A DNA stretch of 33,094 nucleotides from Magnetococcales bacterium (lineage in GTDB: Bacteria; Pseudomonadota; Magnetococcia; Magnetococcales; Magnetaquicoccaceae), in contig JADFYY010000012.1 in the NCBI GenBank assembly GCA_015232825.1, positions 1-33,094 on the forward strand. Direction: 5' to 3'. Within the stretch, counting starts at the first letter, position 1; every line of letters starts with the position of its first letter. The notes under the pieces are model-generated. The model was not told the DNA's origin and made no database searches. It was given only the letters and a program-made list of their open reading frames with translations. The position numbers and the translations under genes are program-made. Below are positions 1 to 29,100 of the stretch, piece after piece.

Positions 1-3000
1 CCTGTCGTAACGCCTGATCAAATTCCGTGAGCAAAAAAGATTCCTGTTGGATGACGTTCTGTTCAATGGCCACCTCCACTTCATGCGCGGCCTTTTGCAG
101 GCGGATGGCAGAGAGATTGCCCGCGATGCCAGCCATCATGTGGGCCAGATTGCGGGCGGCACCGAAATCATCCCTTTGCAAGGCCACCTGGATCTGGTTG
201 CCGATCCCCGCATGCTCCTTGAAGCGCAGCAACATCGACTTAAGGAAACCCTCCTGCCCCCCTAGGCGCACAAGCGCGTTCTGGATGTCGATTCCTTCCA
301 TGACAGGCGGTAAAATACCGGTCGCGTGGACCGTTCTGGTCACACCACTGGGGGGACGCCCAAAATTCATGTTGGTACCGTCCGGGTTGATCCAGTGGAT
401 CAGCGTCTTATAGAGTTGTCTGATGTCGATTGGTTTGGTGAGGTGATCGTTCATTCCACTGGCGAGGCTCTCCTCGCGCGCGCTTTCTAGGACATGGGCG
501 GTCATGGCGATGATGGGCAAAGAGGCGAACTTGGGGTTTTGGCGAATGGCGCGGGTGGCGGCATGACCGTCCAGTACCGGCATTTGCACGTCCATCAGAA
601 CGGCGTCAAAAGAGGCACTCTCCAAACGCTCTATCGCCTCCTGGCCATTGTTAACGATATCGACCTTGACACCTACCCGTTCCAGCAATTCACTCGCCAC
701 CAGTTGATTGATGGCATTATCTTCCGCCAGCAACACATGAGCCCCCCCGATTTTCATGGAGGCTTCCAGTTCTTCGTTGAGTACCGCCACATCGTCATGT
801 TGATCTTTCATGACACGTTCGCCAAACACCTCCAGGATGGCGTTGAATAAATTGACCCTAGTGACCGGCTTGTGGATGAAGAGGTTGACGCCAGACTGCT
901 CAGCACTTTTTTGGATGGTGTATTTTCCAAAAGCGGTTAACATGATAATTTTTGGAACGTTGGCCACTCCTGAAAATTTCTGGTGAATCTTCTGGACTGT
1001 TTGAATGCCGTCCATGCCAGACATCCTCCAGTCCAGGAAGATAAGATGATAGGGAGATCCTGTGGCCTGGGCTGACAGGAGTTCATCCAGAGCCGCTTCG
1101 CCAGAATCCACCGAATTGGTGGTGAATTTGAAGCCACGCAGGATCTCCTCCATGATCTCCCGCGTCATTTCGTGGTCATCGGCTACTAGGATTTTGATCC
1201 CTTGCAAACATTTCGGAACAAAAAGAGTTTTGTTGGTTTCGGAATGGTACTCGAAATTCACGGTGAAATAAAATTCACTGCCCTTTCCTTGGATACTTTC
1301 CGCCCAGATTCGACCTCCCATCATCTCCACCAACTGTTTGCAAATATTGAGTCCCAGGCCGGTTCCTCCATACTGGAGAGCAATCGATGAGTCAGCTTGG
1401 GTAAACGGGGTAAAGAGTTGGTTGATGCGTCCCGGGTCGATCCCAATGCCGGTATCCTGTACCGAAAATTGCAAAGTAACGGGTCCGATGATTTTGCGCT
1501 GGGGGTGTACCTTGACGATCACAGTGCCTTGGGTGGTAAACTTGATCGCATTGCGCAACAGGTTGGTCAAGACCTGCTCCAGCCTTTTGGAGTCTCCGAA
1601 CAAGGTCTGAAAATAATCTTCAGGAATGGAAAAGATCAATTCGACCCCTTTGTTGGCCGCCTGACTGCCGAACATCTCCGCAAGTTTGTTGAACAGTTCT
1701 GCTGGGTTGAACAAAACCGGGTAGAGATCTAATTTGCCTGCCTCGATTTTAGAAAAATCCAGGACATCATTGAGACATCCCATTAGGGAGTGGGATGCGG
1801 TGTCTATTTTGCTTAAATAATCCCTGGTTTCAGGATTGGGTCCGATGCGCAACGCCAGATCGGTCAGGCATAATATGGCGTTCATCGGGGTGCGGATTTC
1901 GTGGCTCAGATTGGCTACGAAATCACTTTTGGCGCGATTGGCGGCTTTTTCCATGATGAGCAGTTGAGCATTTTTTTCCAGGATGAGCTCCTGTGCCTTC
2001 TGATACTCTGTGATGTCGTGGGCGATCAGAAGAATTGCGCTGGCCTCTCCCTTTTCATCCGTGATCAGGGTTGCTGAGAGGAGGATAGGTATTTCATCTC
2101 CTTTCCCAGTCAGCAGGTGATTGGGAATATTGCGCATGGCATTGCCTTGTATCTGGCTCATGAAATCGGCTTGTTTGAAAAAATGACTGGCCGGTTGCCC
2201 GATGATTGCCTTTCTGGTCAGGCCCAATGGTTCCGGGTGGTTGATCTCTTGAATCATGCCGTCCATGGAGAGGAGCATGAACACATCCCGCATGGAGTTC
2301 AGGATCATCTCGTTATGCCGTTTTGACCGTATCAGCCTCCTTTTGTTGACATCAAGATCCTGGATCATCTGGTTGAAGGATGCGGTCAGTTGTGCGGTTT
2401 CGTCATTGCCATGAATCGGGATGGAAACCGTAAGGTTGCCATGGGCGATAGCTTGGGTTGCCTCGAACAACAGTTGGATCGGTTTGGCGAGGGAACGGGC
2501 CAGCATCTCCGCGCTCATCATTCCCAACAGCAATATCAGCAAAGGGGTTAGAGTGATAATGGCCAGGACTTGATTGAATGAGAGATTCCCTTCGAGCAGA
2601 TGGTCATCAGCCTTAATTAGCGCGATACGCCAATCCAGAAAGTCAAGGGATTGGGAAGCTAGGTGGTAGGTGACGCCATTTTGTTGGAAGTGGTTCTGGT
2701 GGGCATCCCCGGTTTTGATTGCCTCCATAATTTTGGAGAAATCAGGATCTTGTGAGAGGGAGTTCATATTAGGAAAATCATCGATCAAGCGGTATTCCTC
2801 CGCTGCTTTTTTTGGATCGCTTGGTTTTTTTGATTTTTTTTGTGCACTGTCCGCCAGGATCAATCCTGTCGCATCCACAAGCAGATAGCGGTCTGGGCCA
2901 TTGGCGTTTTTGGTGATGAGTTCCTGGAAGGTGGTTAGGGGGATCTCGAAATGGAAAAAAGCGGGGACAGTCTGATCTGGCATGATGACCGGGGAAGTAT

Positions 3001-3526
3001 AGGCGATGACCCAATCCAGGTAGTCTGGGGAGAAATAGAGCGGGGTGGTCAAGGTCTCTTTCGCGCCCAATTGCAAACTCTTCTGAAAAAAGGAGAGGTG
3101 ATCCTCATGTCGGTCCAATTTTTCGGCTTGCTGGTGCAGGGTCTTGCGAAAATGTTCACGTCCCAGGCGATCAATCAGACACGTTTCCACCACCGGGAAA
3201 TGGTCTTGGAGTGTATCGCTGAGTTTTTCTAGTTTTCGCCGTAGTGCGTTTTGTTGCTCGGTGAAGGCGATGGGGTCATGGAGTTTTGCAGAGGTGAGAT
3301 TGGATTCCGGCAGAGAGAAATATTCCGAAAACGTGGGGCAATCAGTAGTGAACAGGATGGCCTGTTTGGCATTGGTGTGAAAGGCCTGAAAGGCATAAAA
3401 CCGTTGTTCAAGATTTTTTTGCATGGTCAAAAAGGCGTTTTGACTGACGCTGTTGTCGATTACCCAATAGGTGATCAACCCCATGACTCCCATACTAATG
3501 GACAAAATAGTCAAAATTGAGACCAA
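1..3526 (-). CDS. Membrane hybrid sensor histidine kinase (Cache-like sensor, HAMP, PAS, HisKA, HATPase, REC, REC, HPt), C-terminus cut by window edge
   Basis: The reading frame is open from an in-frame stop at 3592-3590 to the window edge, giving about 1175 residues. Numbering starts from a TTG at 3526. A first membrane segment (residues 1-22) is followed by a periplasmic sensor of about 295 residues and a second membrane segment (about 319-341). Then come HAMP, PAS (about 402-514), HisKA with SHEIRTP and phosphoacceptor His542, an ATPase with an NLLRNAIKFT-type N box and DTGIG and GGTGLGL boxes, REC1 (Asp832), REC2 (Asp979) and HPt (His1129 in AHMMAGIAGNLSA). All phosphorelay residues look intact, so this is a complete inner-membrane phosphorelay sensor. 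It autophosphorylates on its own His and should pass phosphate along its own receivers to the HPt. The sensed ligand is unknown and no output regulator is visible. The start is problematic: no ATG/GTG lies upstream of the first membrane segment in frame, while an ATG with Shine-Dalgarno at 3564 is one base out of frame. Confidence 0.9.
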   Translation of the reverse strand, partial: MVSILTILSISMGVMGLITYWVIDNSVSQNAFLTMQKNLEQRFYAFQAFHTNAKQAILFTTDCPTFSEYFSLPESNLTSAKLHDPIAFTEQQNALRRKLEKLSDTLQDHFPVVETCLIDRLGREHFRKTLHQQAEKLDRHEDHLSFFQKSLQLGAKETLTTPLYFSPDYLDWVIAYTSPVIMPDQTVPAFFHFEIPLTTFQELITKNANGPDRYLLVDATGLILADSAQKKSKKPSDPKKAAEEYRLIDDFPNMNSLSQDPDFSKIMEAIKTGDAHQNHFQQNGVTYHLASQSLDFLDWRIALIKADDHLLEGNLSFNQVLAIITLTPLLILLLGMMSAEMLARSLAKPIQLLFEATQAIAHGNLTVSIPIHGNDETAQLTASFNQMIQDLDVNKRRLIRSKRHNEMILNSMRDVFMLLSMDGMIQEINHPEPLGLTRKAIIGQPASHFFKQADFMSQIQGNAMRNIPNHLLTGKGDEIPILLSATLITDEKGEASAILLIAHDITEYQKAQELILEKNAQLLIMEKAANRAKSDFVANLSHEIRTPMNAILCLTDLALRIGPNPETRDYLSKIDTASHSLMGCLNDVLDFSKIEAGKLDLYPVLFNPAELFNKLAEMFGSQAANKGVELIFSIPEDYFQTLFGDSKRLEQVLTNLLRNAIKFTTQGTVIVKVHPQRKIIGPVTLQFSVQDTGIGIDPGRINQLFTPFTQADSSIALQYGGTGLGLNICKQLVEMMGGRIWAESIQGKGSEFYFTVNFEYHSETNKTLFVPKCLQGIKILVADDHEMTREIMEEILRGFKFTTNSVDSGEAALDELLSAQATGSPYHLIFLDWRMSGMDGIQTVQKIHQKFSGVANVPKIIMLTAFGKYTIQKSAEQSGVNLFIHKPVTRVNLFNAILEVFGERVMKDQHDDVAVLNEELEASMKIGGAHVLLAEDNAINQLVASELLERVGVKVDIVNNGQEAIERLESASFDAVLMDVQMPVLDGHAATRAIRQNPKFASLPIIAMTAHVLESAREESLASGMNDHLTKPIDIRQLYKTLIHWINPDGTNMNFGRPPSGVTRTVHATGILPPVMEGIDIQNALVRLGGQEGFLKSMLLRFKEHAGIGNQIQVALQRDDFGAARNLAHMMAGIAGNLSAIRLQKAAHEVEVAIEQNVIQQESFLLTEFDQALRQ

Positions 3527-11250: not shown

Positions 11251-11282
11251 AACTCCCCTGGATCTGCCAGGGGAGTTTTTTT
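11251..11282. terminator. Strong rho-independent terminator, probably bidirectional
   Basis: An 11-base perfect stem (11251-11261 pairs with 11267-11277, core CTCCCCTGG/CCAGGGGAG) with a five-base loop is followed by a T run to 11282 on the plus strand. On the minus strand the A run at 11248-11252 gives a second U tract. It separates the convergent terC-like and DUF1015 genes and overlaps the last codon of the latter. Confidence 0.9.
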
Positions 11283-12525
11283 AAAAAGTCTGCACCAGCA
11301 AGCCATCACGGAGTTTGGGTTCAAACCAAGTTGATTTGGGCGGCATGACATGGCCTGCATCCGCCACAGCCAGAAGTTCATCCATGGCGGTTGGAAACAA
11401 AGAGAAGGCCACAGCCATTTCACCAGAGTCCACACGCCGCATCAACTCTTCCAAACCACGTATGCCACCGACAAAATCAATGCGGGTATCCTTGCGGGGA
11501 TCGGTGATGCCCAGTACAGGATTGAGCAGTCGTTCTTGTAGGATGGTCACGTCCAGCCTTTGCACGGGGTCTTGTTCTTGATCCGGTTCCAAAGTGGCCT
11601 TAAGGCTATACCATTGGCCGGATAGATACATACCAAATTCGTGACGAACGGTTGGTCGAACCGGGGTATTGGCTGGAACCAATGAAAAAATCGTGCTGAC
11701 TTGTTGCAATAAAAGGTCAGGAGTCAGTCCATTGAGATCCCGGACCACACGGTTGTAATCGAAAATGCGGACCTGAGTGTCTGGAAACACGACCGCAAGA
11801 AATCGGGCAAAGGGTTCCTGAGGGGAGTCGTCCTTTGGAGAGGTCTCGCGCCGTTTTTGACAGATTCGGGCTGCTGCTGCGGCACGGTGATGACCATCGG
11901 CAATATAAAGTGTGGGCATTTGGTTAAAGGTGTCAGAAAATTCCTGGATTGTTTGTGTATCCTCCACCACCCATAAGGTGTGACGAATGCCATCATCTGC
12001 CACAAAGTCATAGGTTGGTTCGGTGGTTGAGATGATCTGTGTGGTCAATGCCTCAATCGTTGGGTGGTGCCGATGGATCAGGAAAACCGGGCCGGAATGG
12101 GCATTGAGAGTACTCGCAAGTCGGGTACGGTCGTTTTCCTTGTCTGGTCTGGTGAATTCATGTTTTTTGATGCGTTCTTGTAGATAGGCATCCACCGAGG
12201 CCAGCGCGGCCACGCCGATTTGATCGCGGCCATTCATTCTTAAACGGTAGATGTAATACCGAGGGGTCGGATCGCAGAGCATGATTTCTGCATCGCGCAT
12301 GAATTGAAAACGGTCTTTGGCTGTCGCGTATACCTGTTCATCATAGGGGGATATCTCTGGGGAGAGACCGATCTCTGCCTTGGAAACATGCAAAAAAGAT
12401 TCAGGAAGGTCTTTGGCCAGCAAACGGGCCTCTTCGCTGTTGAGGACATCATAGGGAGGGGCTGCCACCCGATGTTCCAGACCAGAACGGGGACGCCAAG
12501 CACAAAACGGTTTTAACAAAGGCAC
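11281..12525 (-). CDS. DUF1015 (COG4198-type) family protein
   Basis: A protein of 414 residues, the full usual length for this family. The signatures are APPYDV (22-27), KHEFTRPDKENDR (121-133) and ADGHHR (209-214), the last being a likely catalytic or ligand-binding segment. The biochemical function is not established to my knowledge; these motifs suggest an enzyme related to ParB/sulfiredoxin-like folds, but this is uncertain. The start is GTG 12525. Its ribosome site GGAG lies in the end of the preceding gene (12537-12534), and the gap to that gene's stop is three bases, so translation is probably coupled. It is the last gene of the kinase operon. Many genomes place DUF1015 near serine or D-3-phosphoglycerate metabolism genes, which I do not see here. 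Confidence 0.85.
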   Translation of the reverse strand: MPLLKPFCAWRPRSGLEHRVAAPPYDVLNSEEARLLAKDLPESFLHVSKAEIGLSPEISPYDEQVYATAKDRFQFMRDAEIMLCDPTPRYYIYRLRMNGRDQIGVAALASVDAYLQERIKKHEFTRPDKENDRTRLASTLNAHSGPVFLIHRHHPTIEALTTQIISTTEPTYDFVADDGIRHTLWVVEDTQTIQEFSDTFNQMPTLYIADGHHRAAAAARICQKRRETSPKDDSPQEPFARFLAVVFPDTQVRIFDYNRVVRDLNGLTPDLLLQQVSTIFSLVPANTPVRPTVRHEFGMYLSGQWYSLKATLEPDQEQDPVQRLDVTILQERLLNPVLGITDPRKDTRIDFVGGIRGLEELMRRVDSGEMAVAFSLFPTAMDELLAVADAGHVMPPKSTWFEPKLRDGLLVQTF

Positions 12526-12528
12526 GAT

Positions 12529-13497
12529 TTATTCTCCAACCAGTTGGGTGATTTCTTTTCGGATGGCTTCTTCCATGGTGTGTAATGCGTCTCCTAGTTG
12601 ACTCCAAAGGGTGTTGGCTTGTTGTAGGTCACCCTGACGTCCTGCTTGTTCCAAAGCAAAGGCGAGATGAAACACTTCGATCCGTCCAAAGGTGCCGGTT
12701 GCTCCTTTGATGCGGTGGGCGGCTTCGCGAATTTCATTGGCGTCGCCAGTGAGAAAGGCGTTTTGAATGCGACCCATTTGACTGACGGCGTCCGTGAAAA
12801 AAAGATCCGTGATTTCATTCAGTAGGTCAAAATCTCCATCGACCGTTTTAATTAATCGACTCATGTCCAAGACCATGGGAGACTCGACTTTTTCAGTGGT
12901 CAAGAGTCGTTCCATCTCCGTGAACAAAACGGTGCCTCGAACGGGTTTGGCATGAAAACTGTCCATGCCGACCTCTATGGCGCGATTTTTGTTCTCTTCA
13001 TCCACCAGTGCGGTGACCGCGATAATGGGAATGTGTTTGCCAGAGCCATTTTTTTCCTGTTGACGAATGATCTCTGTCGTCTGGAAACCATCCAGGAGAG
13101 GCATGCGCAGATCCATGAGTATCAAGTCGAAGGGGGTTTTGGCCATGCATTCCAAGGCCTCTTGACCGTTTTGGGCCAAGGTGACTTGATAACCCTGTAG
13201 GGTCAAAAGACGGGTCATGAGTTTTTGGGTGAATGGATTGTCTTCCACCAACAAAATAAGATGTTTTTTGGCGGTTGTTGACTCCTGTGCGGATGGGGGC
13301 TCGGCTAAGGGTTGGGGGTTGGGAAGTGAGGCGAGCAAGGATCCGCCTGCCAGTCGAATGCGTTGCAGATGTTCCCGTTGCGTCCCGGTCAAGGAGGTAT
13401 CGAGCAAAATGTCCGCATGGTGCAAAATCTCCTCGATCAGACGACGTTCGAGAAGGGTATCTGCGTGACGGATTGATAATTCGCCTGTCTGTTCCAT
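12529..13497 (-). CDS. Receiver-HPt phosphotransfer protein with degenerate HisKA-like N-terminus
   Basis: A protein of 322 residues. Residues 14-55 resemble a histidine-kinase dimerisation helix pair (EILHHADILLDTSLTGTQRE, then LAGGSLLASL), but the phosphorylated His position of the SHEIRTP motif is Leu15, and no ATPase domain follows. A complete receiver runs from about 78 to 200, with acidic pair EDN, Asp129 (LILMDLRMP), VTAL and Lys in AKPV. A complete HPt runs from about 215 to 320, with His261 in AAHRIKGATGTFG. The protein cannot phosphorylate itself but can accept and relay phosphate. It lies 22 bases downstream of the hybrid kinase and three bases before the DUF1015 gene. The likely role is to supply receiver and HPt functions that the kinase lacks. 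Confidence 0.88.
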   Translation of the reverse strand: MEQTGELSIRHADTLLERRLIEEILHHADILLDTSLTGTQREHLQRIRLAGGSLLASLPNPQPLAEPPSAQESTTAKKHLILLVEDNPFTQKLMTRLLTLQGYQVTLAQNGQEALECMAKTPFDLILMDLRMPLLDGFQTTEIIRQQEKNGSGKHIPIIAVTALVDEENKNRAIEVGMDSFHAKPVRGTVLFTEMERLLTTEKVESPMVLDMSRLIKTVDGDFDLLNEITDLFFTDAVSQMGRIQNAFLTGDANEIREAAHRIKGATGTFGRIEVFHLAFALEQAGRQGDLQQANTLWSQLGDALHTMEEAIRKEITQLVGE

Positions 13498-13519
13498 GGC
13501 TTTCTAAAATGATCCGTAA

Positions 13520-16500
13520 TTAAAAGGTTTCAATAAACTTTTCCACATGGCGAAATGCCGCTTCAAGGCGTTCGATGGTTCTTTTGGCCTCGCTCCATTC
13601 ATGGTGCAGTGATGATTGTTCCATCACCTTGGCCAGTTGCGCCATGGCGGTGACTCCCATATTGGAACAGGCTTCTTTGAGTTCCAGGGCAGCTTCTAGG
13701 ACTAAATCCGCATTTTCTTTTTGGATCATCTCGTCGAGCTTGTCTAGGAGTTCTCGTGCGGAAAGCTGAAAATGTTGCAACAGTTCGCGGATCATCTCGT
13801 CATCATCGCCGAAAAGTTGCCGCAATTGATTGATCTCCACGGGGGGAGGGGTGCCGATACTTTTTGGGATCCAGTACTGCAACTTTTGCAGCAGGTTTTC
13901 AGGAGAGACCGGTTTGCTCAGATAATCATCCATGCCCGCGCTTAAGCACCGTTCCCGGTCTCCTTTCATAGCGTGGGCGGTCATGGCAATGATGGGAATG
14001 TGACGAGAGGCGGCCTGTTCGGATTTGCGTATGGCGTGGGTGGCCTCAAAGCCGTCCATGACCGGCATTTGACAATCCATCAGGATCAATGCGTAGGGCA
14101 GATGTGAAATCGCCTCCACCGCCTCCTTGCCGTTGCTGACCGCATGAGCGGCATAGCCCAGTTTTTTGAGTTGCAGCAAGGCTACTTTTTGGTTGACTGG
14201 ATTGTCTTCCACCAGAAGCAAAAGATTGCCAGACTCCAGGGCATCATAGGCATCGGGTTGGAGCGTGTTGGTTTCCTTGGCAAGAGGCGCAGTGATCGAT
14301 TCCACATGGGGGAGGATACTTTCAGGGTGAACCTGTTCGGCAAGGCAACGGATTAAGGTGGATCGCCGGATCGGTTTGAGGAGAACCGCTGCAAAACCGG
14401 ATTTTAGGAAGTTATTTCGTTCTTCTTTGTCGTCCCAATCCATCAAGGCGATAATGGATAGTTCATGGCCGTTTTTTTCCCGTTTGAGGAGTTCGGCCAT
14501 GATTTGGCAGTCCATGTCAGAGAGGGTTGAGGCAATCATGACAATCTGGAATGGTTTACCCTTGCTGATGGCCTCCCGGTAGGTGATCAGCCCCTGTTCA
14601 CCGTTGGTGGTTCCTTGATGGAGCATGCCCCATGCGTTGAAACAGTCGCCAAGAATTTCTTGGTCGGTGGTTTTTTCCAGTACGGTCAAGATGCGAACTT
14701 CCCGCAAGAGTTCCATGGGTAGGCTGTCATTGTCAACAGGATCCAAGGAGGGTTTAAATGGGATGCGAAACCAGAAAACGGTTCCTCCTTCTTGGCGGCT
14801 GTGGGTGCCGATTTCACCGCCCATCAGTTCTGCCAACCGTTTGGAAATGGCCAACCCCAAGCCAGTCCCACCAAATTTGCGTGCGGTGCCTTGTTCAGCC
14901 TGGATAAAGGGTTCAAACAATCGTTTGGTCTCTTGTTCTCCCAGTGCCAGCCCAATGCCGGTATCGGCTACGGAGAAATGGACCATCACTTGATCCCTGA
15001 CCTCGCCCTCTAGCAGGACTCGTATGGTCACTTCTCCTTCATCGGTAAACTTGACGGCATTGCCCATCAGGTTGAGCAGCATTTGTCGCAAGCGTCCAGG
15101 ATCCCCGATCAGTGTATCAGGAATGCGTGGGGAGACATGAGTCATCAGGGAGATGCCCTTTTCGTGAGCTTGGGGAGCAAGCAGTTCCGCAACCCCCTCC
15201 ACAACCGTCAGAAGAGAAAAATGGATGGCGTCAATGTTGATTTTTCCGGCTTCGATTTTGGAAAAATCAAGGATGTCGTTGATCAATGCCAGCAAAGAGC
15301 GGGAAGAGTCGTGGACGATTTCGGCAAATTCCATCTGTTCTTCGTTTAACGGGGTATCCATGAGCAGATCGTTCATGCCGACGATGGCGTTCATGGGGGT
15401 GCGGATTTCGTGGCTCATGTTGGCCAAAAAGGCCGATTTCTGACGTGAGGACTCCAGGGCCGCATCTCGGCACATTTTCAGCTTGTTGATCTCATCCACG
15501 GTCAAGGCGGCATTCCGAAAGATGGCCATGGAACCGATGATTTCAGTCTCTTGCATCAGCGGTGTTGTGACGTAGGAAACGGGAAACAGTGTGCCATCTT
15601 TGTGAATAAAGTGGTCATCCTCGACTCGGTAGGAGCGGCCCAACAGGCTTTGATGGACCGGACACTCCCGCATCGGAAAGGGGGTGTTGTCTGCCCGTTT
15701 GTAATGGATAATTTCATGCAGGTTTTTATGCAGAAGTTCAGCCTCTTGCCATCCCAAGAGTCGTTCTCCTTCCTTGTTTAGGGAGAGGAGTTGACCTTTG
15801 TTGTCCAGAACATACGCTCCATCCCCCATGGAATCCATGATGAGCCGCAAGAAAGAGAGGTTTTGTTCCATACGGGTTTCGGTCGCGACCCGTTCGGTGA
15901 TATCTGAGGCGACTGTGATGTATTGAAACGGGCGGCCTGAGGGGGTCAAAAACGGGACAATGGTGCAATCCAGCCAGAAAAAATCCCCATTTTTTTTACG
16001 GTTACGAATCTCTCCTCGCCAGATGCGTCCGTTTTGAATGATGCGCCACATCTCTTTGAAAAAGGATTTTTGGTGATAGGCGGAATTAAAAATTTTGTGA
16101 TTTTTTCCCAGGATCTCCTCTTTGGAGTAGCGGCTAACCTGGAGGAGTCTACTATTGACATCAATGATCGTCCCTTCCGGGTCGGTGATGCTCATGAGGA
16201 GATGTTCATCTACGGCGTTTTTTTGTTGTTCCAGTTTGCTCATGACCTCCTGAAAGTGTCGGGTCCGGTCAGTGAGGATTGCATCCATGCGTGACCGTTC
16301 GATCATATCGCGAAAAATTCCTTGAATGGCGATCTGTTTGCCATTTTCATCCAGAATGATGCTCGCGTTCATGGAGACCGGAGCCTGCTTGCCCCGGCGG
16401 CACAATAGAACCAGATCAAAGTCTTCGACGCTTTCGCTGGTTTTCAAAATTTGCATCATTTCATGGAGGTGTTCGGGATTGGCACAAAAATCGACCAAGG

Positions 16501-17068
16501 GGCGTCCTAGGATTTCGGCTGGGCGGTGTTTTAACAGCTTTTGTACCGAAGGGCTGACAAACTGGAGAACGCCGTTGAGATCCATGCGGTAATAGACATC
16601 TTCCATGAAGTCGCAAATGGAGTGGAATTGCTTGATTTTTTGGTTGGTGGAGCGAGCCTTGCGTTGCTCTTCGGTAACATCGCGCACTAAGATGAGATCA
16701 CCGAGCATGGCAGGGGTCAAGGCGTGGGCATGACCCATAAATTCTATGGAAAAAATGGCAGATTCCGGTTTGTTTGGAATGTCTGTTTCCTGTTCGCGCC
16801 AACCAATGCGTTGACCCAAGCCACAGTGTGGACAGCGGGTGACAGCAGGGTAGGAAAAACCAGCGGAAATCCGTCCCCACCACGCTTCGGGAGAACCCCA
16901 GGGGCGAGAGAGGGTGTTTAATGCAGCATCGGTCGAGTGGATAGAACCACTTTCTCTGACAATACCCATTCCAGTGGGAGATTTGTCGAGATCGGGTGTG
17001 CCGTTTGTGCCGGTGTTTGCATGTTTCATGATTGGACGGCTCTCACTTTTGGCTTCTGACATGGTCAT
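13520..17068 (-). CDS. Soluble multi-PAS hybrid histidine kinase with inactive REC1 and inactive HPt
   Basis: A protein of 1182 residues with no membrane segment. The N-terminal region (about 45-125) ends in a PAS-like LILVRDVTEEQRK and contains CPHCG. Three PAS domains follow (about 135-265, 290-410 and 415-535); the second has the aerotaxis-type RNRKKNGDFFWLDCTI pattern. The HisKA has SHEIRTP with His553. The ATPase has NLMGNAVKF, DTGIGL and GGTGLGLAISK. REC1 (about 785-900) has Ala846 where the phosphoacceptor Asp should be. REC2 (about 945-1060) is intact with Asp998. The C-terminal HPt-like bundle has Leu1128 in place of His. The kinase senses an intracellular signal, perhaps redox or oxygen via PAS. 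ATG 17068 is chosen, with a weak GGATAA site upstream. It is followed by the receiver-HPt gene after 22 bases. Confidence 0.92.
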   Translation of the reverse strand: MTMSEAKSESRPIMKHANTGTNGTPDLDKSPTGMGIVRESGSIHSTDAALNTLSRPWGSPEAWWGRISAGFSYPAVTRCPHCGLGQRIGWREQETDIPNKPESAIFSIEFMGHAHALTPAMLGDLILVRDVTEEQRKARSTNQKIKQFHSICDFMEDVYYRMDLNGVLQFVSPSVQKLLKHRPAEILGRPLVDFCANPEHLHEMMQILKTSESVEDFDLVLLCRRGKQAPVSMNASIILDENGKQIAIQGIFRDMIERSRMDAILTDRTRHFQEVMSKLEQQKNAVDEHLLMSITDPEGTIIDVNSRLLQVSRYSKEEILGKNHKIFNSAYHQKSFFKEMWRIIQNGRIWRGEIRNRKKNGDFFWLDCTIVPFLTPSGRPFQYITVASDITERVATETRMEQNLSFLRLIMDSMGDGAYVLDNKGQLLSLNKEGERLLGWQEAELLHKNLHEIIHYKRADNTPFPMRECPVHQSLLGRSYRVEDDHFIHKDGTLFPVSYVTTPLMQETEIIGSMAIFRNAALTVDEINKLKMCRDAALESSRQKSAFLANMSHEIRTPMNAIVGMNDLLMDTPLNEEQMEFAEIVHDSSRSLLALINDILDFSKIEAGKINIDAIHFSLLTVVEGVAELLAPQAHEKGISLMTHVSPRIPDTLIGDPGRLRQMLLNLMGNAVKFTDEGEVTIRVLLEGEVRDQVMVHFSVADTGIGLALGEQETKRLFEPFIQAEQGTARKFGGTGLGLAISKRLAELMGGEIGTHSRQEGGTVFWFRIPFKPSLDPVDNDSLPMELLREVRILTVLEKTTDQEILGDCFNAWGMLHQGTTNGEQGLITYREAISKGKPFQIVMIASTLSDMDCQIMAELLKREKNGHELSIIALMDWDDKEERNNFLKSGFAAVLLKPIRRSTLIRCLAEQVHPESILPHVESITAPLAKETNTLQPDAYDALESGNLLLLVEDNPVNQKVALLQLKKLGYAAHAVSNGKEAVEAISHLPYALILMDCQMPVMDGFEATHAIRKSEQAASRHIPIIAMTAHAMKGDRERCLSAGMDDYLSKPVSPENLLQKLQYWIPKSIGTPPPVEINQLRQLFGDDDEMIRELLQHFQLSARELLDKLDEMIQKENADLVLEAALELKEACSNMGVTAMAQLAKVMEQSSLHHEWSEAKRTIERLEAAFRHVEKFIETF

Positions 17069-18172: not shown

Positions 18173-20158
18173 TCACTGCCCTGGGACAATGTATTTATAA
18201 ATGGTTCGCTTTACTGGCATATCGGGATTGGTTTTCAACATCTCTTTGAGTGTCAAAAGATTTTCCGGGTTGCTTTTGCCACTCTTGCCCAGTATGTCCA
18301 CCATGATGATCTGCTCTGCTGGATGCGTAACAGCCAACGCATTACTATTGGCCCATTTCAACCCATCCTGATTTAAAGTCAAATCGCCAATGGTCTTCAA
18401 GGCAACGGTCTTGACCTTGGTGGAAGACTCATTGCCATAATGTTGAATGAGGGCGTTCATAATCGCGGGATCATCCATGCGTCGCATCGCCGTATAGGCA
18501 CTTGCGCGGACCCTCTCATCTTCGGCGGTGAAAAACGGCTCTACCTTGGGAGCCAGTTGTTTGTCGCCATAATTGCCAATGGCCACCAAAGTCTCCAATT
18601 GCGCATCGGCGGATTGAACCTGTCCTAATTGCGTCTCCAGCAAGATGCCAACTTTGGTTTTGGTCTCTTCATTCAACTTCTCCCCTTGTCCCAAATCGCC
18701 AATCGCCAGCATGGCCATGGATTTCATCTGTCTGGTTTTGGCACCATCCGTGGAAGAGGTGTCCTGCTTGTAGAAGTTGAACAGCTCATCGACCAAAAAA
18801 GGTTGGGGGTGTTCAAAGCCGTGAACCGTCATCAAGGCACGCATCCGCGTTACCTCGGAACGGGATGAATTGCTGATGGCCGTCACAACCGCCTTTTGGG
18901 CCTCACTGTGACCGGATTCGGCCAGCAGACGCCACAAGGTGAGTTGCATCTCCTGGTTCAAACGTTCACGATGGCTATCCCGATCCAAAATGTCGATGAG
19001 TTCTACAGAGGCCTGAGGGTGACGGCGCAAATAGTTGATCATGAATTTTGCAGCCAACATTTCGTCATTGTTCTCTTTGGTTTGGGACATTTGCTTGAAC
19101 AAATCCACCGCCCCATCCAGAGGCAAACCCGCCGCCATTTGATCCAAAACAGAATCCGTCTCATAATACCGGATGGATAAATAACGGTCTGACTGCAATC
19201 GCTCGGTGAATTGTGCAAACAATTCAGGAAACAGTCCCGTGGTGTTCTTTTCCAGCAGGTTTAAAGTGGTTTCGCTCTCTGCGTTCGACCATTCGTAAGA
19301 ACCGGAAAGTGTGGCCGTTTTTTCTTTGTATTCCAGGGAGGTCAGCCACGGACCTTTCATGGCCATGGTGATCTTTCCTGAAGAATTGCGCACGCGAACC
19401 GTGGAGTTGGCAATGGCGGAATTGTCATTGGCAAAGGTTCCTGAGTAGGTGTGCTTTTCCTTGCCAATAACCACGCGATTCTCTTTGACAGCCAAGGTTT
19501 CGATATGATAGTTGGCCTGATAACGTCCCACCATATCTGTCTCGGTGGCACTCCAAGCGGTTTGCCCCTCTTTGGGAAGGGTGATCTGTAGACCCAGCAA
19601 CAGATTTTTTACCAATTTCTGGGCATTGACGGGAACACCACGGGTGAATTCAAAGTGATCGAATATCCCCTGACTGGTCATGGTGAATGTGAATGGTTCA
19701 CCAAGGGGGGGCGTGTAGAGGCTCTTTTCCTGATTGATTTTGTGTTCCAGGTGTTGGATCAGCCCTGCCACATTCCAGATACCCGGTTCACGGGGATAAA
19801 ATTTGAGAGACAACTCACCCAGAAAGCTAGACTCCACCGGCACCAGCACCCCCTGGCCAGAAGATGGCGTTGGGACGCTACCTCCAGACAGGTTGGGTTG
19901 CATGAACGAAAAATCGATGGCCGCCTTGGAGTGGGTATTAAACCGCCAGACCGCAACCTGACCATCCTTTGGACTGAACCGCAATAAAACAGCCGGTTCA
20001 GGGACGATTTCCTCCAGGGAGGCCTTGTCCGAATGGGACGCGCCTCCTTTTGTGGGAGAGGTGGCAACTGGAGCCTGACTGGCTGGTTTGAGCCACCAGA
20101 ACAGCACAAAAGCCGCCACCACAAGGAACAGCAATCCATAGAGCCAGTTTTTCTTCAT
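18173..20158 (-). CDS. Membrane-anchored HEAT-repeat protein coupled to the giant lipoprotein
   Basis: A protein of 661 residues. MKKNW and a hydrophobic stretch (about 5-23) form an N-terminal anchor, so the body is periplasmic. A low-complexity linker leads to a beta-rich region (about 60-330, with many alternating strands), then a helical region (about 380-660) with HEAT-like repeats (ERVRASAYTAMRRMDDPAI and similar). Beta-rich plus helical superhelix resembles large lipid transfer proteins such as vitellogenin and MTP, but I cannot prove that. I choose ATG 20158 rather than an upstream start at 20191 because it forms an ATGA overlap with the stop of the giant gene, so translation is coupled. 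It may help export, fold or lipid-load that neighbour. Confidence 0.75.
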   Translation of the reverse strand: MKKNWLYGLLFLVVAAFVLFWWLKPASQAPVATSPTKGGASHSDKASLEEIVPEPAVLLRFSPKDGQVAVWRFNTHSKAAIDFSFMQPNLSGGSVPTPSSGQGVLVPVESSFLGELSLKFYPREPGIWNVAGLIQHLEHKINQEKSLYTPPLGEPFTFTMTSQGIFDHFEFTRGVPVNAQKLVKNLLLGLQITLPKEGQTAWSATETDMVGRYQANYHIETLAVKENRVVIGKEKHTYSGTFANDNSAIANSTVRVRNSSGKITMAMKGPWLTSLEYKEKTATLSGSYEWSNAESETTLNLLEKNTTGLFPELFAQFTERLQSDRYLSIRYYETDSVLDQMAAGLPLDGAVDLFKQMSQTKENNDEMLAAKFMINYLRRHPQASVELIDILDRDSHRERLNQEMQLTLWRLLAESGHSEAQKAVVTAISNSSRSEVTRMRALMTVHGFEHPQPFLVDELFNFYKQDTSSTDGAKTRQMKSMAMLAIGDLGQGEKLNEETKTKVGILLETQLGQVQSADAQLETLVAIGNYGDKQLAPKVEPFFTAEDERVRASAYTAMRRMDDPAIMNALIQHYGNESSTKVKTVALKTIGDLTLNQDGLKWANSNALAVTHPAEQIIMVDILGKSGKSNPENLLTLKEMLKTNPDMPVKRTIYKYIVPGQ

Positions 20159-23100
20159 GGCGTGGCGACCGAAACTCCTGAAAGAGCCCAAGTGGGCGTG
20201 CCGCTTAGTGTCGCATCGTGCTTGCCCGTTTGATCCGTCAGGGTGGTGCCAGATTCTTCATCAAATCGGTAATAGACCTCCAAGCCCGTTTCCGATCCAG
20301 AGATGATCTTGGATTTGTAGGCACTGATTTCACTGGCCGTTCTGGCCACACTCCAAATGCGCAACTCATCGAGTTGACCTTTGAAACGTTTGTCAAAATT
20401 GTCTATGCCAATCAGAAGATCCGTGCCGACTGTGGTATTCAGGGTCGTACTCGTCTGAGTAAAGAAGCTGGTCTCTAGAACACCATCCACATAAATTTTG
20501 GCATCGGTGATATTCGGTGTACCATCATTTTCAAAGGAAACCGCCACATGATGCCAAGCCCCATTGTTTACCGCAGTATTGCCAGTTTTTTTCCCGACGT
20601 TAATATTAACCTGAACGCCGCCATTGGTGTCAAGATTGATGGCCCATTTGTTACCTATGGTATTGGTTCCCCAATAAATCAATCCTCCTGAGGTTGCCGT
20701 CGTATTGATCCAGAATTCAACTGTTCGTGCAGAACTACCGGTAATTCCAGTATAACCAGTCACCTTTGCCGAGTCGGTCGTGCCATTTAATACCAAGGCG
20801 TTACCCGCACTGTAAATCGAGGCCCCAGAAAGAGTCCAGGAAAGGTCACCACTCATCGTGGCATCACGCTTTTTACTGGTCTGATCCACCAGAGTACTGC
20901 CTGTCCCCTCATCAAAACGGTAATAGGCTTCTAAACCGGTTTCCGTGCCAGCCAACGTCTTATAGCGGTAGGCAATGAGATCACTTTGAGTTCTGGCCAC
21001 ACTCCAAATGCGCAGTTCATCCATTTGGCCACTGTAATGTCGGTCAAAATTGTCATTGCCAATCATAACATTTGAAAGAGCTACCGTATTGACGGTTCCG
21101 CTCTCTTTGAAGTAGAAACTGGTCTCCAAGATGCCATCCACATAGATTTTGGCATCGCTTATGTCCGGCGTACCGTCATTTTCAAAAGTGACTGCAATAT
21201 GATGCCAGTTGCCATTGTTTACAGCGGTTGATCCCGTCATTCTGCCTGTACCTGCCGTTACCTGCACGCCTCCATTGGTGTCAATGCTGATGCCCCATTT
21301 TTTACCCGTGGCATCGGTTCCCCAGTAAACCAATGCTTTCGAAGATGCATTGACCGTTGTCGTTTTGATCCAAAGCTCCACTGTTCTTGCAGAAGTACCG
21401 GTAATGCCCGTGTAGCCAGTCACTGAGGCCTGATCTGTTGAACCATTCAAAACCCATGAACTGCCAGCGGAAGATACCAGATTGCTGTTGCTCCAGGTCA
21501 GATCAAAGTTGGTCGCGCCAGCTTTGCCATAGAATTCAATCTTGACATCATGATACCCCTGAGTCATGGGCCAGTTTGTGGTGAGTTTCTTGCCCGCAGC
21601 ACCATTCCAGCCGTTGATCGCCTCAATTCCGTCTAAGTACAAGATGGCCCCAGATGTGGCAGTCAGTGAGAAAGTGTAGGCGTTTTCATCAAAATAGTAC
21701 ATGCCACTTCCTCTGGCACTGAAATCTGTACCGGTCGTTATGCCCGATGGAACAAGGTTAGTAAGACCGCTAAGAGTGGTCATGGTAGCACTGGTTTTGC
21801 TACCATCGGTCGTATTGACCGGGGTGCCAGTAAAAGTGGTTGAACCACTGTAATAGTTGGTATACATCTTTTCAGGTTCGACCAGAGTCCAGCCTACAAA
21901 CACATCGGCATCACCGGTATTTTCGGCATACTCAACCTTGATGGTGTGAACCGCCGCATCGACAATGGCCACGTTGTGATAGGTTTTGGTGTCGGAGACC
22001 GTGTTCCATTGGTCTACCACCAGACGGTTGTCCACCCAGAGACGCACTTTATCGTCCGCCTTTACAGTGAACATATAAACGCAAGTATCATTGACCTCAG
22101 AGGTACTCGCATTGGCATTGACGGTGCCATCGGAGTTGTAGGCGTCAATGCCATTGCAGGAGGTACTCGTGCTGGTGAAATCAAAGCTACCAACCCAGCG
22201 CACACCAAACGAGTCCTTGCCATTGTTGTTGGCGGAATCGAGTGCGGTATCGATGGGTTGCATGGAATAGGTGGGGGACGAGCTGCTCCAGTTGAAGTTG
22301 ATGGCTGTTGTGTAGTCCCCTACCTTGATCGCCGCATCCTTGCGGATCAGGATGGGGTCAATCGCTGTGCTGTTTGCATCGGTGTTTGCAGTGCTGGAGG
22401 CTTCCATATCCGTTGCAGTACGGTAGTAGTACCCGGTCAGTTCGCCATTTTTTTGCGCACTCCAGGTCAATTGACTGGATCGAGGATTGGTCAGTTTGCG
22501 CGAGCTATAATCATCGTAGAGCTTCGCATAAACGGCGATGGAATGATACCCCTTGGTCATGGCGATTGAGGTTAAAAAGGAGGTGGAACTGTTGTGCGAC
22601 CACCCGCCTGAATAGACCACGCCATCGATGGTAATGGTCATCCCAGGGTTGGTATAGGCGATGAAGTCATAGGTCGTATCGGTGTCAAAGTAGAAGTATC
22701 CCTCATATCGCATGTACTCATAACTCGGAGTGCCCAGAGATTTGATGTCGGCATTGATGTCATCGACAATGTCAATGGTGGTCTCGGTCGTCAATCCACC
22801 ATTGGTGGCCCCTGTGATGATTCCAGTTTTTAGCCATTTACTCACGGGCAAGTAGGTCAAGGAAATCTCAGGCGTGACGGAAATGGTCGATCCATCCGAT
22901 TTCTTGCGACTGGTTTCATGAAAATAATTGAGCCAGAGGGTGTGTGTGCCAGAGTTCAACTCGACTGGGGAGGAGAGGACGGTCTCAACTTCGGTTTGGA
23001 TGAAGGGGACGGTGGTTTTACTTCTGCTATATGTGTCGATGATTTGCACGTTATCGACGCCCAATAGCACCCGATCATCGCTTTTGAGCTTAAAGATCCA

Positions 23101-26100
23101 ACTGGTATTCTTCGTGGCGGAAAATTTCTTTTCCCAACTGACAGCAAATTTACTGGGGTCCACCATCTTGGTGACATCTGTACTGGCTTCTCCAGAGGGG
23201 GAGGCCGAACCCCAAGTGTGGTCGATGGTTTGCTCATAGTCTCTCCAGACCACAGGGGGATTCATATCTGTGTTGTTGTAGTAGGTGGCTGTGAAGCCGG
23301 TATAGTTCGATGGTGTCCAGTAGAAGTCAATGTCTGCCGATGTCGGGGTTTTGCTGCTCGTATCCTTGGTGTACTTGACATCCACCTCATAGAGTGCGTC
23401 CGAGGTGAGCGTCATGGTGGTGGATTTGTCGATGGCCGAAAAGCGATCATCAAAGGTGAAATAGGCGTACAAACCAGAGGTGGTCGAAGAGAGACGGCTG
23501 TTCATATTGGCGGAAATTTCGGATTGTGTGCGCACCTTATTCCACAGGCGCAGCTCATCCATCCGGCCATCCATCGAGCGCGTCTGTGTATAGGGGCGGC
23601 CAATGAAGACGCCGCTGGCGGTTTTGCCGTTGTCAAATGAGTAGGACATGGACTTTGTGGCTTTTAGAACCCCATTCACATAGAGGTTGAAAACGGATGT
23701 TCCTGAATTGTTGGTGCTATAGGTGGCGGCAATGTGATACCAAGTATTTGTAGTCAATGCGGTACTGCTCTCTACCCGAGCATCATCACTTCCACCCTTC
23801 TGGTAAATAAAGAACGGTTTGCCACCTGTGATGCCCGTGTGAATCTCCATGGTGCTGTCGGCGTGACCAAAGCCATCGGAACCAGATCGGTCTCCAGCAT
23901 AAAAGAAGACTCGATCTCCAAGGTTGTCCAATTTGACCCAATGTTCGATGGTTCCACTGGTGACCGCGCTGAAGGGGGTCTTCAGAGATGAACTTAAATC
24001 TACATAATCGTTGTCACCATCCAGAACCAAACTACCTTTGATCAAACTATTGGTGCTGATGGTGGTTGCAGACAGCGTATCTGTAGCGGTGTCAATAGAG
24101 GCCCCATTGGTCAAGTTACCGGTATAGCTGTTTACGTTATCCAAGATCTGCGTCGAACTGTAGGTCGGCAATTTTCCCATGGATTGACCGTTGACTGTGG
24201 CTGTGACACTGTCATCGGTGGTCAGATGAAAAACGTAAGTCCCGGCATCAAAGTCAAAGTTTCCCTTCCACTCGAGTGAAGAGGGGGGGCTGGTTGAAGA
24301 ATAATCGATGTTGGCCGCAAGAGAAAGAGTGCCATCGGTGTTGACGACATAACGATTTCTGGGACCAAATATTTTGATCCTGGGATCTTTCAGATTCTTG
24401 GTCCATTTAACGCCACTCCATTCAAAGATGGAAACCTCCTTTCGGAATTTGATCTTGATAAAACCAGCTTTCATGGAAAATTCAGCAAAGGCATAAAATT
24501 CACCATCCAGGGTACGAATCACCAGAGGTGTCTCATACTTGATAACCGCTACAGGGAGTGTCTTGTTTAACAGAAAACTGGATTTTAAGTAAAGGTCAAG
24601 CTCCAGTATCGTTAAGCTCATTCCGACTCCAGCAATGGCGGTAATTTTTACACCGCCCTGCTTGGAAGAGAGTCCAACTCCCGCCTCGGCAAACCCCTTC
24701 ACTGAGAAGAATGGACCAAAGTATGAACTGACCATTTGATCGTTGTTGATTGTAAGCGATCCGTGCAGACCGATTGAGCCCACGACTCCCGCTTTGACGA
24801 CCACGGGAATACCACCGATGAAATACTGCTTCTCCATCTCCATCAATTTTTTTGAGAGGATATAGTTTTCGTTACCATTCCAGTCCAAAGAAGACCAGAG
24901 TTCCTCGGTCTTTGTGGCCGTTTTCCCTTTGCAGGTACCGGTCGTGAAAAAGTCGTTGAGCGCGTTAACGGTTAGCTCAGTGGCTTTGCCGAGGTCAATC
25001 CCTCCTTGAAAGATGGTCCAATAAGATGTACCCAGAATTTTGATGTCAACATTCATATCGCTGCAATACGGATTTTCACCATTAAACTGGGCCCCGACAT
25101 CCAGGCTGAGCATGCTTTTTTTAATGCCAAACAAGGTGATATCAAAGCTGCTGCCACCATCGGCTTCAGCGTTGTACGGCACATCATTTGAGATATCTCC
25201 GTAGTCAAGACCGCCATTTAGAGAGTAGGAGATGGCAACGACGTCGTTGCCATTGGATACCGTCGTGTTCCCCAAGCTGACAAAATTGGTGCGACTGCTT
25301 GCGCTGCTGCTGCCGCTATCATAGAAGCGGACATTTTGGGGCTTGGAAACACTTTTGCCGACCAGGAAAATGACCGGGATGGTTTTGACATTGTCCGCAC
25401 GATTGTTTTCCCACTCGGCCACCCGGCTTTCTGGGTCCAGACGAACCACCAGACTGGCCTCGGTATCCTGGGTCAGATTGGCTAGGGAATCATAGGCCTC
25501 ACCATTCAAATAAAGCTCATAGGTATGCCCTTTTTGTGACTGCTTGAAGAGCGAAGCGCAACGTTCCTTGCCTTGGTCTTGGATACAATTCACCTCATAG
25601 GTTTTGGCAGATTGCAGCTTCGGTCGTCCCTGATTATCTGAAAGACGAATGCTTAAAGGAAAGGTCTTCCCAGAGATTTGCAGCTCTGCCGTAACATTGA
25701 CCGCTGAGGTGGTGTCCTGGGCCATGGATTCCACTTCCATGTTCAAGGAAAGATCCGCTGCGAAGGGGGGGGAGGTTCCATCATCCAGACGACTTTCCGG
25801 CAGTACAAAGCTGTTGTTGCCCAATGTTGCGGAAAGAATGCGCAAGTTGGGTTTGTCTGGCGTGCCAATGATCACACTGGCTGGAGCCACCAAGACGTTA
25901 TCGGACAGGTCAGCGGAACTTTCACTTTGCAGGGCATCATCTGCGCCTGTGTAGTCGTAGCGGCCTATGCTGAAAACTGCGGCATAAGTACCGTTTGCCA
26001 CCTCGTTTGGAATTAGGAAGGCATGTTCCACCTGTGCCGAAAGGAATTTGGAGTCGGTATACTTAATGGTGGTCGAGGTGTGTTTATCCTGGGTTTGAGT

Positions 26101-29100
26101 CACCGTCGTGTTGGAGAGCTTCTGTCCGAGGCTGGGAATGTTCAGCGCGGTCAGGGTATAATCTGGGGTGAAGTTGGTCGGATCAATTTTCAGATCGCTT
26201 ACGCTTCCAGTTGGCAGTTTGACAAGAAAAAGTTTGACAATGCTGTTGTATTTGGGCTCCTCGCTGGTCACATTGAAACGCACGGTGCTGGCCATACCGG
26301 CCTGCATGGTATCTTCCACCCAGACATCGGTGAATTTCAGATTGCCAGCCTCAAAGGCTGGAACATACGTGTCATCACCGACACCATCGACAACAACCTG
26401 AGAATCGGACGTCGCTGCGGTATAAGAGACCGGAACCGCCAACCCCTTGGCGATGACCATGGAGAATTTCCCTTGCTCATCCGTGTCTGCCGTGGCCACG
26501 ACATTGCCCGACATATCCAGAGCGGAAACCGTCGTTTTTCCGGTCACCTTGCCGTTGGTGTAAAGTGCCTGACCGTTTTGCGTATAGGTATCGGTCACGG
26601 AATAAACGGTATTGTCCTTGGTATCGCGCTTGTACAGATAAAGATCGTAACCACCCTCACCCCCAGGCCGCTTGGAGTGAAACAGAATGTGCTGGGCATG
26701 GCGGGTCAGTGCGGGGGCCGCATCTTCAAAATCGCTATTCAAAGAGGGCAGGAAAATGAACTGCTTGGTACTTAACTCGTACAGGAAGACGTCATAACCC
26801 ACATGCTGCAAATCCGGGTTGTCGCGGTTGCTGTAAAAGGCCAGATAATCGCCATCTGGGGTCAAATAGGGGCGAGAGTCGGTAAACTCCGAAGCAAAAG
26901 AGGCAGACATCGGGACCGAGGCATTGCTGCTGCGCTCATACAACACAATATTTTTTCTGCCTTGTTGCGTGGTTTCGCGTTCAAAGGCATACAGCAGGTT
27001 ATCCTTGCCACCAATAGAGGGGGCCAACTCACTTTTGGAGGTCGTAATCTTGCGTGATGAGGTATCCACAAACTGCTTGTTGACAAGATCATATACCAGA
27101 ATATCGGCATTGGCCCCTGAAACAGGATCGGATCGCCTTTGGAAAATCAGACGTGAACCATCGCTGTTGAGTTTGGGATTAGACTCCTCTAGTGAGGTCG
27201 CCAGATCAGGAAAACTCATGAAGGCTTTGTTTTGGAGATCATATACCCGGATATCCAGCATGGTCTCTTTGGTGCCAAGGGATGCAAAGGCAATATAACG
27301 GCCATCCCCACTGATGCTGGGTCTGGTGTCATCACTGTTTGTATTGAGTCCAGGATACGTAACCAGTCCCACTCCAACGCGGTAAACGTAGATATCATAG
27401 CCCTCCATCCCATCGGGGCGGTTGCTTTGAAAGACAATGGTTTGGCCATCGTTGCTGATGTCGCCATACATGTCATCGCCGATACCGTTCAATCCAGGCA
27501 GTTTGACGAAATGGTGGTCTTCATCGACAATCGATTTGGATGGCGTGACCGCATCCTCATGCCGAACCAGGAACAGCTCGCCAAATGGTCCGCCATTCAG
27601 ATAGCTGACCAAGTCAAATCCAAGAATATATTGGCTCCAGTAATCCAAGCCTAGAACCATACGGTAGGATTTTTTGCTAAGATCGGCCACATCGATTTTG
27701 ACGACCGGTACGTTGTCGGCAATTTTCAGGATGTTGTCCGAGCCAAACATCACCAGTGAGACCGAGACCCGGTTGATAGTACCCCAGGATCCGGCTGTTT
27801 TGTCATAGCCTAAGGCAACGGCCACCTCTGTATCCATTTGGATACGATCCTTGACCAAGGTGGCTGGCAAAAGTTTGCTCATTTTTGCAATGTTTCCAGG
27901 CTCTGTCCCTGTGTAATGGGCAGAAACCTGTTGCGAACCACTGGCAAAGGAATCCGCATAAAACGGAATCTCCATGCTGAGTGTACTTGTTTTTGGTTCA
28001 GACCCCATCTTGCCAGCGACACTCGTATAATAGGCCTTGTGTTTGGAAATGCCGCCAATTTTTGGCATCTGGCCCAGACTCATCCCTGACGCACCATTGG
28101 CATTGATGCTAATTTCAATCATATTGATTTCTGGCAAGAAAACCCGAATCGGAATGTCGGCGGTCAAGGGGATATTTTGACCACTCCCTCCTGGAGGAGA
28201 TTGGTTCGTACCCGTGTCTGTGGGTGTCTGTCCAGTTCCAGTTGGCGGCGGAGTTGTGGTACCCGTTCCAGCTGGAGGCGGGGGAGGAGGTGGCGGATTC
28301 ACGCCAAGGCGGGGCTTGTCGATACCACTGGAGGCAATACTATTGCCTGACGTTGATCCAGAGGACTCACTGCCATTATCGATACCAAAAATACCCTTGG
28401 CATCAATCAGGTCAAGTTGCAGGGCCGTCGCGCAATCTTGACGTTTGGCAACAATGACATTGAAACTTTTTGACCGGTGGTTGCCAACAGTAATTTCGGT
28501 TTTGGCGATGGTTCCAGAGACTTTCCCCAATCCAAGCGAGAATTGAACCGGTTGTTGATTTTGTGCAGGCACAACCCCTGGTGGCAAAGAATCGGCAAAC
28601 AGCACCACAGCACTTAACGAGTTATCGACCAAAAGATCATACTTTTGACCAGCCATGGAGACAGGGAGCATGTACAAGCCAGCTGAGGATGCTTTCAGTG
28701 GCATGAATTCATGTTGTGTTGTGGAGGCTGTTGCGGCGGGTGTTTCCGTTGCGGCCAGATTGTATTGATAGATGTCGCTGCCTCCTTCACCACCCGGTCG
28801 CCGCGATTGGAAGAGCAATTTGTGGCCTGAATCGGTAAACCGTGGATAGATTTCATCCATGTCGGAGTTGAGACCCGGATATTTTTTGGTGATTCCTGAT
28901 TTCAAGTCAACCAGATAGATATCCCGATCAAACAGACCGGCATTGGGATCTTTTCGGTTGCTGTGCAGAGCCAGAGTCTGACCATCGGCACTCAAAGCGG
29001 GTGAGAGTTCATCTCTGGTGGTATTGACGCCGCGCACCCCTTCCGAAAGAGTCACGGTTTTCTTTTGTTGCAGGTCATAAAGGGCGATGTTGCGTTGAAC

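Follow-up and report, generated by a model that had tools for sequence, protein, structure and literature searches.

A hybrid histidine kinase (P1) and the protein encoded directly behind it (P2) probably constitute a four-step phosphorelay, split between two proteins and old in the order Magnetococcales, in which an HPt domain without His at the C-terminus of the kinase would serve to dock on a partner or control access to it. The best-supported route would run from His553 to Asp998 within P1, then in trans to His261 of P2 and on to a response regulator. The window, by which we mean the whole stretch of DNA analysed (33,094 nucleotides), is the entire contig C33 of a draft genome of 3.0 Mb that is 77% complete. 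Both open reading frames were found where the initial annotation had placed them, on the minus strand with 22 bases between them; 3 bases behind P2 comes a DUF1015 gene. The features are as follows.

11281..12525, minus strand: DUF1015 gene (Pfam PF06245, 328 bits)
12529..13497, minus strand: P2, 322 aa, composed of a DHp-like hairpin, REC (Asp129) and HPt (His261), from the ORF, Pfam, hhalign and a structural model
12550..12864, minus strand: HPt of P2, residues 212-316, with His261 (Pfam Hpt, 46 bits)
13520..17068, minus strand: P1 hybrid kinase, 1182 aa, from the ORF, Pfam and site columns
13523..13816, minus strand: pseudo-HPt of P1, residues 1085-1182, with Leu1128 at the His site (Pfam Hpt, 24.7 bits)
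13865..14227, minus strand: REC2 of P1, residues 948-1068, with acceptor Asp998
14324..14701, minus strand: pseudo-REC1 of P1, residues 790-915, with Ala846 at the acceptor site

Promoter-like and terminator-like sites in the P1-P2 region did not exceed the shuffled expectation, and the P1-P2-DUF1015 operon is hence deduced from spacing and conservation. Elsewhere in the window, positions 2-3526 hold a further hybrid kinase, cut by the contig end, whose domains include a receiver and a His-bearing HPt, and positions 20155-32445 encode a protein of 4096 aa whose repeats resemble, by eye, beta-propeller and lectin-like domains.

The domain order of P1 is PAS domains, HisKA (His553), HATPase, pseudo-REC1 (Ala846), REC2 (Asp998) and pseudo-HPt (Leu1128). 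Pfam recovers HisKA (79 bits), HATPase_c (95 bits) and two Response_reg stretches, while the Hpt match is borderline against a cut-off of 24.6 bits. The ATPase motifs are intact, and the HisKA His, HATPase and receiver Asp of a hybrid histidine kinase are all present. Alignments put His553, Ala846, Asp998 and Leu1128 at the functional columns, in agreement with the initial annotation. Among 34 P1 orthologues, chosen by length, identity and tree position (fragments at contig ends without the tree criterion), His553 is kept in all 33 that are readable there and Asp998 in 34/34, and the REC1 acceptor is Asp in three and another residue in 31. According to the available part of one source (PMC7010744), pseudo-receivers at the REC1 position are widespread among hybrid kinases, which makes Ala846 a less telling part of the pattern. 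Across ten genera, with one genome each, mean identity falls from 82% in DHp and 80% in REC2 to 64% in CA, 43% in the pseudo-HPt and 28% in REC1. Residues 905-950 of P1, directly before REC2, form a conserved linker stretch in the 34 orthologues, reading PDAYDALESG in many of them.

P2 matches Response_reg (92 bits) and Hpt in Pfam, with no ATPase family listed, and its Asp129 and His261 also align to the functional columns as had been claimed. The proposed HisKA-like segment at its N-terminus stands in part. Residues 24-60 of P2 match residues 562-598 of P1, in the second half of HisKA, by hhalign (probability 91.7, E = 7.7e-7; nine controls with other P1 segments or reversed decoys gave a probability of at most 1.6), and residues 2-57 are modelled as a helical hairpin; at E <= 10, however, Pfam gives no HisKA match. 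The match begins past the H-box, so Leu15 as a replacement of the His is an ungapped extrapolation only, and the residue at that offset varies and is His in 0/25 P2 proteins, this one included. P2 looks like a hybrid kinase that may have lost its H-box and ATPase.

To examine the distribution of the pair, P1, P2 and DUF1015 served as queries against 48 genomes of the order; the class-level set consists of the same 48. Of these genomes, 44 encode a kinase that P1 matches at 1e-140. The gene immediately downstream of P1, in the same orientation, is of the P2 type in 31 of the 34 genomes with an orthologue (three gaps between the two are negative, the longest frame having been used), and in the others the contig ends there (G004 and G030) or the partner is on another contig (G023). 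P2-type genes are present in 33/34 genomes with P1 versus 3/14 without it (Fisher p = 1.8e-7, a value that ignores kinship and to which adjacency contributes, as P2 was found partly through it). Eleven of the 14 genomes without P1 have no P2-type HPt, a weak match of G026 inside a 1394-aa frame being counted as none; the three with one are G032, G034 and G031 (69% complete). Twenty-seven of the 36 P2-type genes possess a REC (26 aligned proteins and G030), and nine are bare HPts of about 120-140 aa, found in seven g14 genomes, G023 and G032. Asp129 is present in 26/26 of the aligned P2 proteins with REC.

The initial annotation had proposed looking for the pair in relatives with the same substitutions, and across the order the two genes are indeed conserved together, with the same complementary losses: a relay HPt with His is missing from P1 (His in 1/33 readable orthologues) and present in the P2-type partner (35/35 readable genes). 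Hence P1 lacks the HPt His within the kinase that marks unorthodox kinases of the ArcB/BarA type. A kinase homologue with an intact HPt His, which the annotation had regarded as a sign of strain-specific decay, occurs once (G025), and the loss is not thereby strain-specific. The HPt of this single kinase scores 49.9 bits and looks functional. The placement of G025 within the P1 clade, for which support is weak to moderate, implies that the His was either lost several times, or lost once and regained. Its contig ends just past the P2 REC with the P2-type HPt unread, and neither a P2 HPt nor DUF1015 was found elsewhere in the G025 assembly, which fits a missing contig.

The residues that replace the His in the other 32 orthologues are of ten kinds: Leu in nine, Glu in six, Ile and Phe in five each, Asn in two, and Met, Gln, Asp, Ser and Tyr in one each. 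Five of the 32 codons (Asn twice, Gln, Asp and Tyr) are one base away from His, and the Asp codon, standing among Glu relatives, is more likely derived from Glu. By entropy over the ten genera, column 1128 is the third most variable of the 98 in the HPt. Positions around it differ from those of P2: Lys at H+3 is found in 14/33 P1 HPts versus 32/32 P2 HPts, and Gly at H+4 in 7/33 versus 32/32, with Glu there in 26/33 of P1. Asn1136 and Gly1138 are invariant in 33/33 P1 sequences and Glu1129 is kept in 32/33. The C-terminus is untruncated in all 33 orthologues where it can be read. In eight close pairs dN/dS of the pseudo-HPt is 0.03-0.07, with dS > 1 in four of the eight pairs and 0.03-0.06 in the four with HPt dS < 1. 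For the other P1 domains, which serve as the reference, it is 0.00-0.12 (CA, similar to the pseudo-HPt), 0.01-0.03 (REC2) and 0.07-0.21 (REC1, above the pseudo-HPt, in the six pairs where it was computable). Judged from these sequences, the pseudo-HPt is under purifying selection while its phosphosite drifts freely. Strain-specific decay and assembly error are ruled out by the non-His state in 32/33 orthologues together with the dN/dS values. If the His was lost once, long ago, and the site then drifted, the 32 non-His states would be far from independent of one another.

The REC2-HPt part of P1 was modelled with a mean pLDDT of 87.9, and its HPt portion has five helices at 88-98 per ten-residue block; the HPts of P1 and P2 are both predicted as helical bundles. 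The best 50 entries of a fold search with the C-terminal model of P1 are mostly receiver domains; the evidence for the HPt fold therefore consists of the Pfam match, the helix pattern of the model and its confidence. The stretch from L170, which has a stop in its translation, was left out of the structure alignments. Genome-wide, 41 HPt matches were obtained at E <= 0.01, of which 39 keep the His by eye, P2 included. The His is missing from P1 and from one kinase on contig C256 that falls below the Pfam cut-off; the latter (G000:C256:139-372, L232) is a second hybrid kinase with a His-less HPt, carrying Glu, and the end of its gene lies about 100 bases short of the contig end. In a published survey, His-less Hpt domains make up 0.9% (90/10,312), and the available part of that source gives this frequency and no function for them (PMC12632262). 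Against these two backgrounds the loss of the His in P1 is more than chance.

The transfer steps, docking role and output that we infer are the following. P1 would autophosphorylate at His553, and its own REC2 would take the phosphate at Asp998. Because the HPt of P1 has no His, REC2 must pass the phosphate in trans if the relay is to continue, presumably to His261 of P2 or, in some genera, to the bare HPt, from which it would reach a response regulator encoded elsewhere. No response-regulator neighbour conserved across the P1/P2 loci was found. Genes resembling NtrY/NtrX, named by reading, lie upstream of P1 in g9 and g14 (L118, L042 and relatives) and may include an output regulator. The His-less HPt seems to be kept as a folded module that carries no phosphate and probably docks on REC2 or P2, thereby controlling access, a gating or docking role suggested by its constraint. 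Asp998 appears the likelier donor of His261 than Asp129, since REC2 is 80% identical, Asp998 is kept throughout and nine of the 36 P2-type genes have no REC. Asp129 would be dispensable in the genomes with bare-HPt partners and no required step there.

Several other readings of the pair can be weighed against this relay. With ten different residues at its site, the HPt of P1 might be thought a dying domain, but such plain decay is hardly credible given a dN/dS that is not near 1, the two invariant residues with the nearly invariant Glu1129 and the intact C-termini. One of the forms that the relay may take has a pseudo-HPt that acts, with its freely drifting phosphosite, as a docking or gating cap and times the access of REC2 to the trans HPt, which is possible and not yet probable. 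In a second form, rather doubtful, the P2 HPt would still serve P1, with the pseudo-HPt as an inhibitor in competition with it for REC2. In plants, AHP6 is a His-less pseudo-HPt of the competitive inhibitor type; both it and the tail of P1 have an HPt fold without His, but AHP6 is a separate protein whereas that of P1 is the end of a kinase. The conserved domain and the conserved residues round an empty, drifting site agree with inhibition. However, Glu at H+4 in most P1 sequences may weaken receiver binding, a Gly at this position being described as conserved in HPt proteins in the available part of the literature source (PMC6341664).

It is unlikely that the P2 HPt and DUF1015 form a unit of another pathway that lies beside P1 by chance, with P1 ending at REC2 and its HPt unused. 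Such a unit would account for the P2-type HPt and DUF1015 that occur without P1 in G032 and G034 and distant from P1 in G023, and for the His-less paralogues (four of g9 and one of G026) that have no separate HPt gene in the flanks examined, but not for a partner directly downstream of P1 in nearly every genome, nor for the 11 of 14 P1-less genomes without a P2-type HPt. Quite improbable is a route in which Asp129 takes the phosphate from His553 and hands it to His261 within P2, REC2 being bypassed. The invariance of Asp129 in P2 proteins with REC indicates that this residue does something; against the route stand the P2-type genes without REC and the better conservation of REC2 (80% mean identity between genera, versus 52% for the P2 REC). 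The split relay from P1 to P2 is hence preferred. Even so, the P2-type genes without P1 imply that P2 serves at least one further function or kinase, and with 41 HPt matches in the genome REC2 of P1 could use another HPt. Together with a DUF1015 link that is tighter than the link to P1, these observations leave room for another or a wider role of P2.

This DUF1015 gene lies directly behind 35/35 P2-type genes with downstream DNA, on the same strand and also where P1 is missing (32 + 3 loci), and is thus tied to P2 more strictly than P1 is. No HPt gene was found beside DUF1015 in the flanks examined of G021, G036, G027 and G038, and a comparison of DUF1015 with solved structures gave no match better than E = 0.59. 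In the literature searched, the name DUF1015 occurs in two papers, once in each.

The statement of the initial annotation that each protein holds what the other lost is correct as to the complementary losses, but not as to the gene split that it may suggest. In a tree built from 63 REC-HPt stretches, including 11 from P2 proteins, the latter form a separate clade (ultrafast bootstrap 100) to which neither P1 nor its paralogues belong. This rules out that P2 is a recent copy of P1 or a tail broken off from it, and the pair was not made by splitting or recent duplication of the kinase. Eleven of the paralogous kinases matched were placed in a tree. The closest paralogue clade, of which 11 members were examined, tends the same way as P1: the HPt His is kept in six from g1 and lost in four from g9 and in that of G026, and the flanks examined of the His-less ones (L226, L227, L229, L230 and L233) contained no separate HPt gene. 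Outside the order, P2 was matched at 1e-36 in two of 398 genomes drawn from the phylum, and the idea that P2 is a general stand-alone REC-HPt protein of the phylum was set aside. One match lies inside a 1084-aa frame (G164), the other is a 273-aa frame with REC and HPt (G218), whose direct neighbours are not kinase-like by eye; a frame carrying receivers plus an HPt occurs about 2.8 kb off on the other strand.

By analogy, P1-P2 would work like ShkA-ShpA or RcsC-RcsD, the unusual part being the kept, conserved, His-less HPt. In the RcsC-RcsD-RcsB system the relay step sits in the second protein, and P1-P2 would likewise combine a pseudo-receiver kinase with a second-protein relay step. RcsC is described as a hybrid kinase with a pseudo-receiver ahead of its REC (PMC7010744) and RcsD as a sensor-like relay protein without the conserved His of the transmitter domain (PMC3842833), in the available parts of both sources. 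This His is missing from the hairpin of P2 as well, and P2 may resemble the RcsD type, a His-less kinase-like remnant followed by an HPt; unlike RcsD, P2 has an intact receiver and shows no ATPase domain, and unlike RcsC, P1 keeps the HPt fold. In the ShkA-ShpA-TacA pathway of Caulobacter, as far as the available text describes it, a DHp-CA-pseudo-REC1-REC2 kinase passes phosphate to a separate phosphotransferase (PMC7010744). The same domain order, with a pseudo-receiver between CA and REC2, and a separate phosphotransferase protein are present here, but the C-terminal domain of ShkA is REC2 (PMC7010744), behind which P1 adds the His-less HPt, and the DDR motif of the ShkA REC1-REC2 linker is absent from P1 (0/34 linkers, residues 905-950). 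For CblS-CblT and PvrS-RcsC, the phosphate of a sensor kinase is reported to go via the HPt of a second sensor (PMC3842833); in these systems the HPt is part of another complete sensor kinase, and the available part of the source does not mention that the first kinase retains an HPt lacking its His. In pseudo-receivers and pseudo-histidine kinases, according to the portion available, a domain that lost the phosphosite is still used (PMC12632262), the domain in P1 being an HPt.

No bacterial function of a His-less HPt appears in the titles and abstract openings of the open-licence papers among the matches listed, nor is a kinase of this kind among them, which is no proof of absence. The pair offers a natural series across the order in which the HPt His of the kinase is present once and absent 32 times, with partners that do and do not possess a receiver and an empty domain that is under constraint. 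Two questions thereby become testable: what a pseudo-HPt does, and how a cis phosphotransfer step shifts into a second protein.
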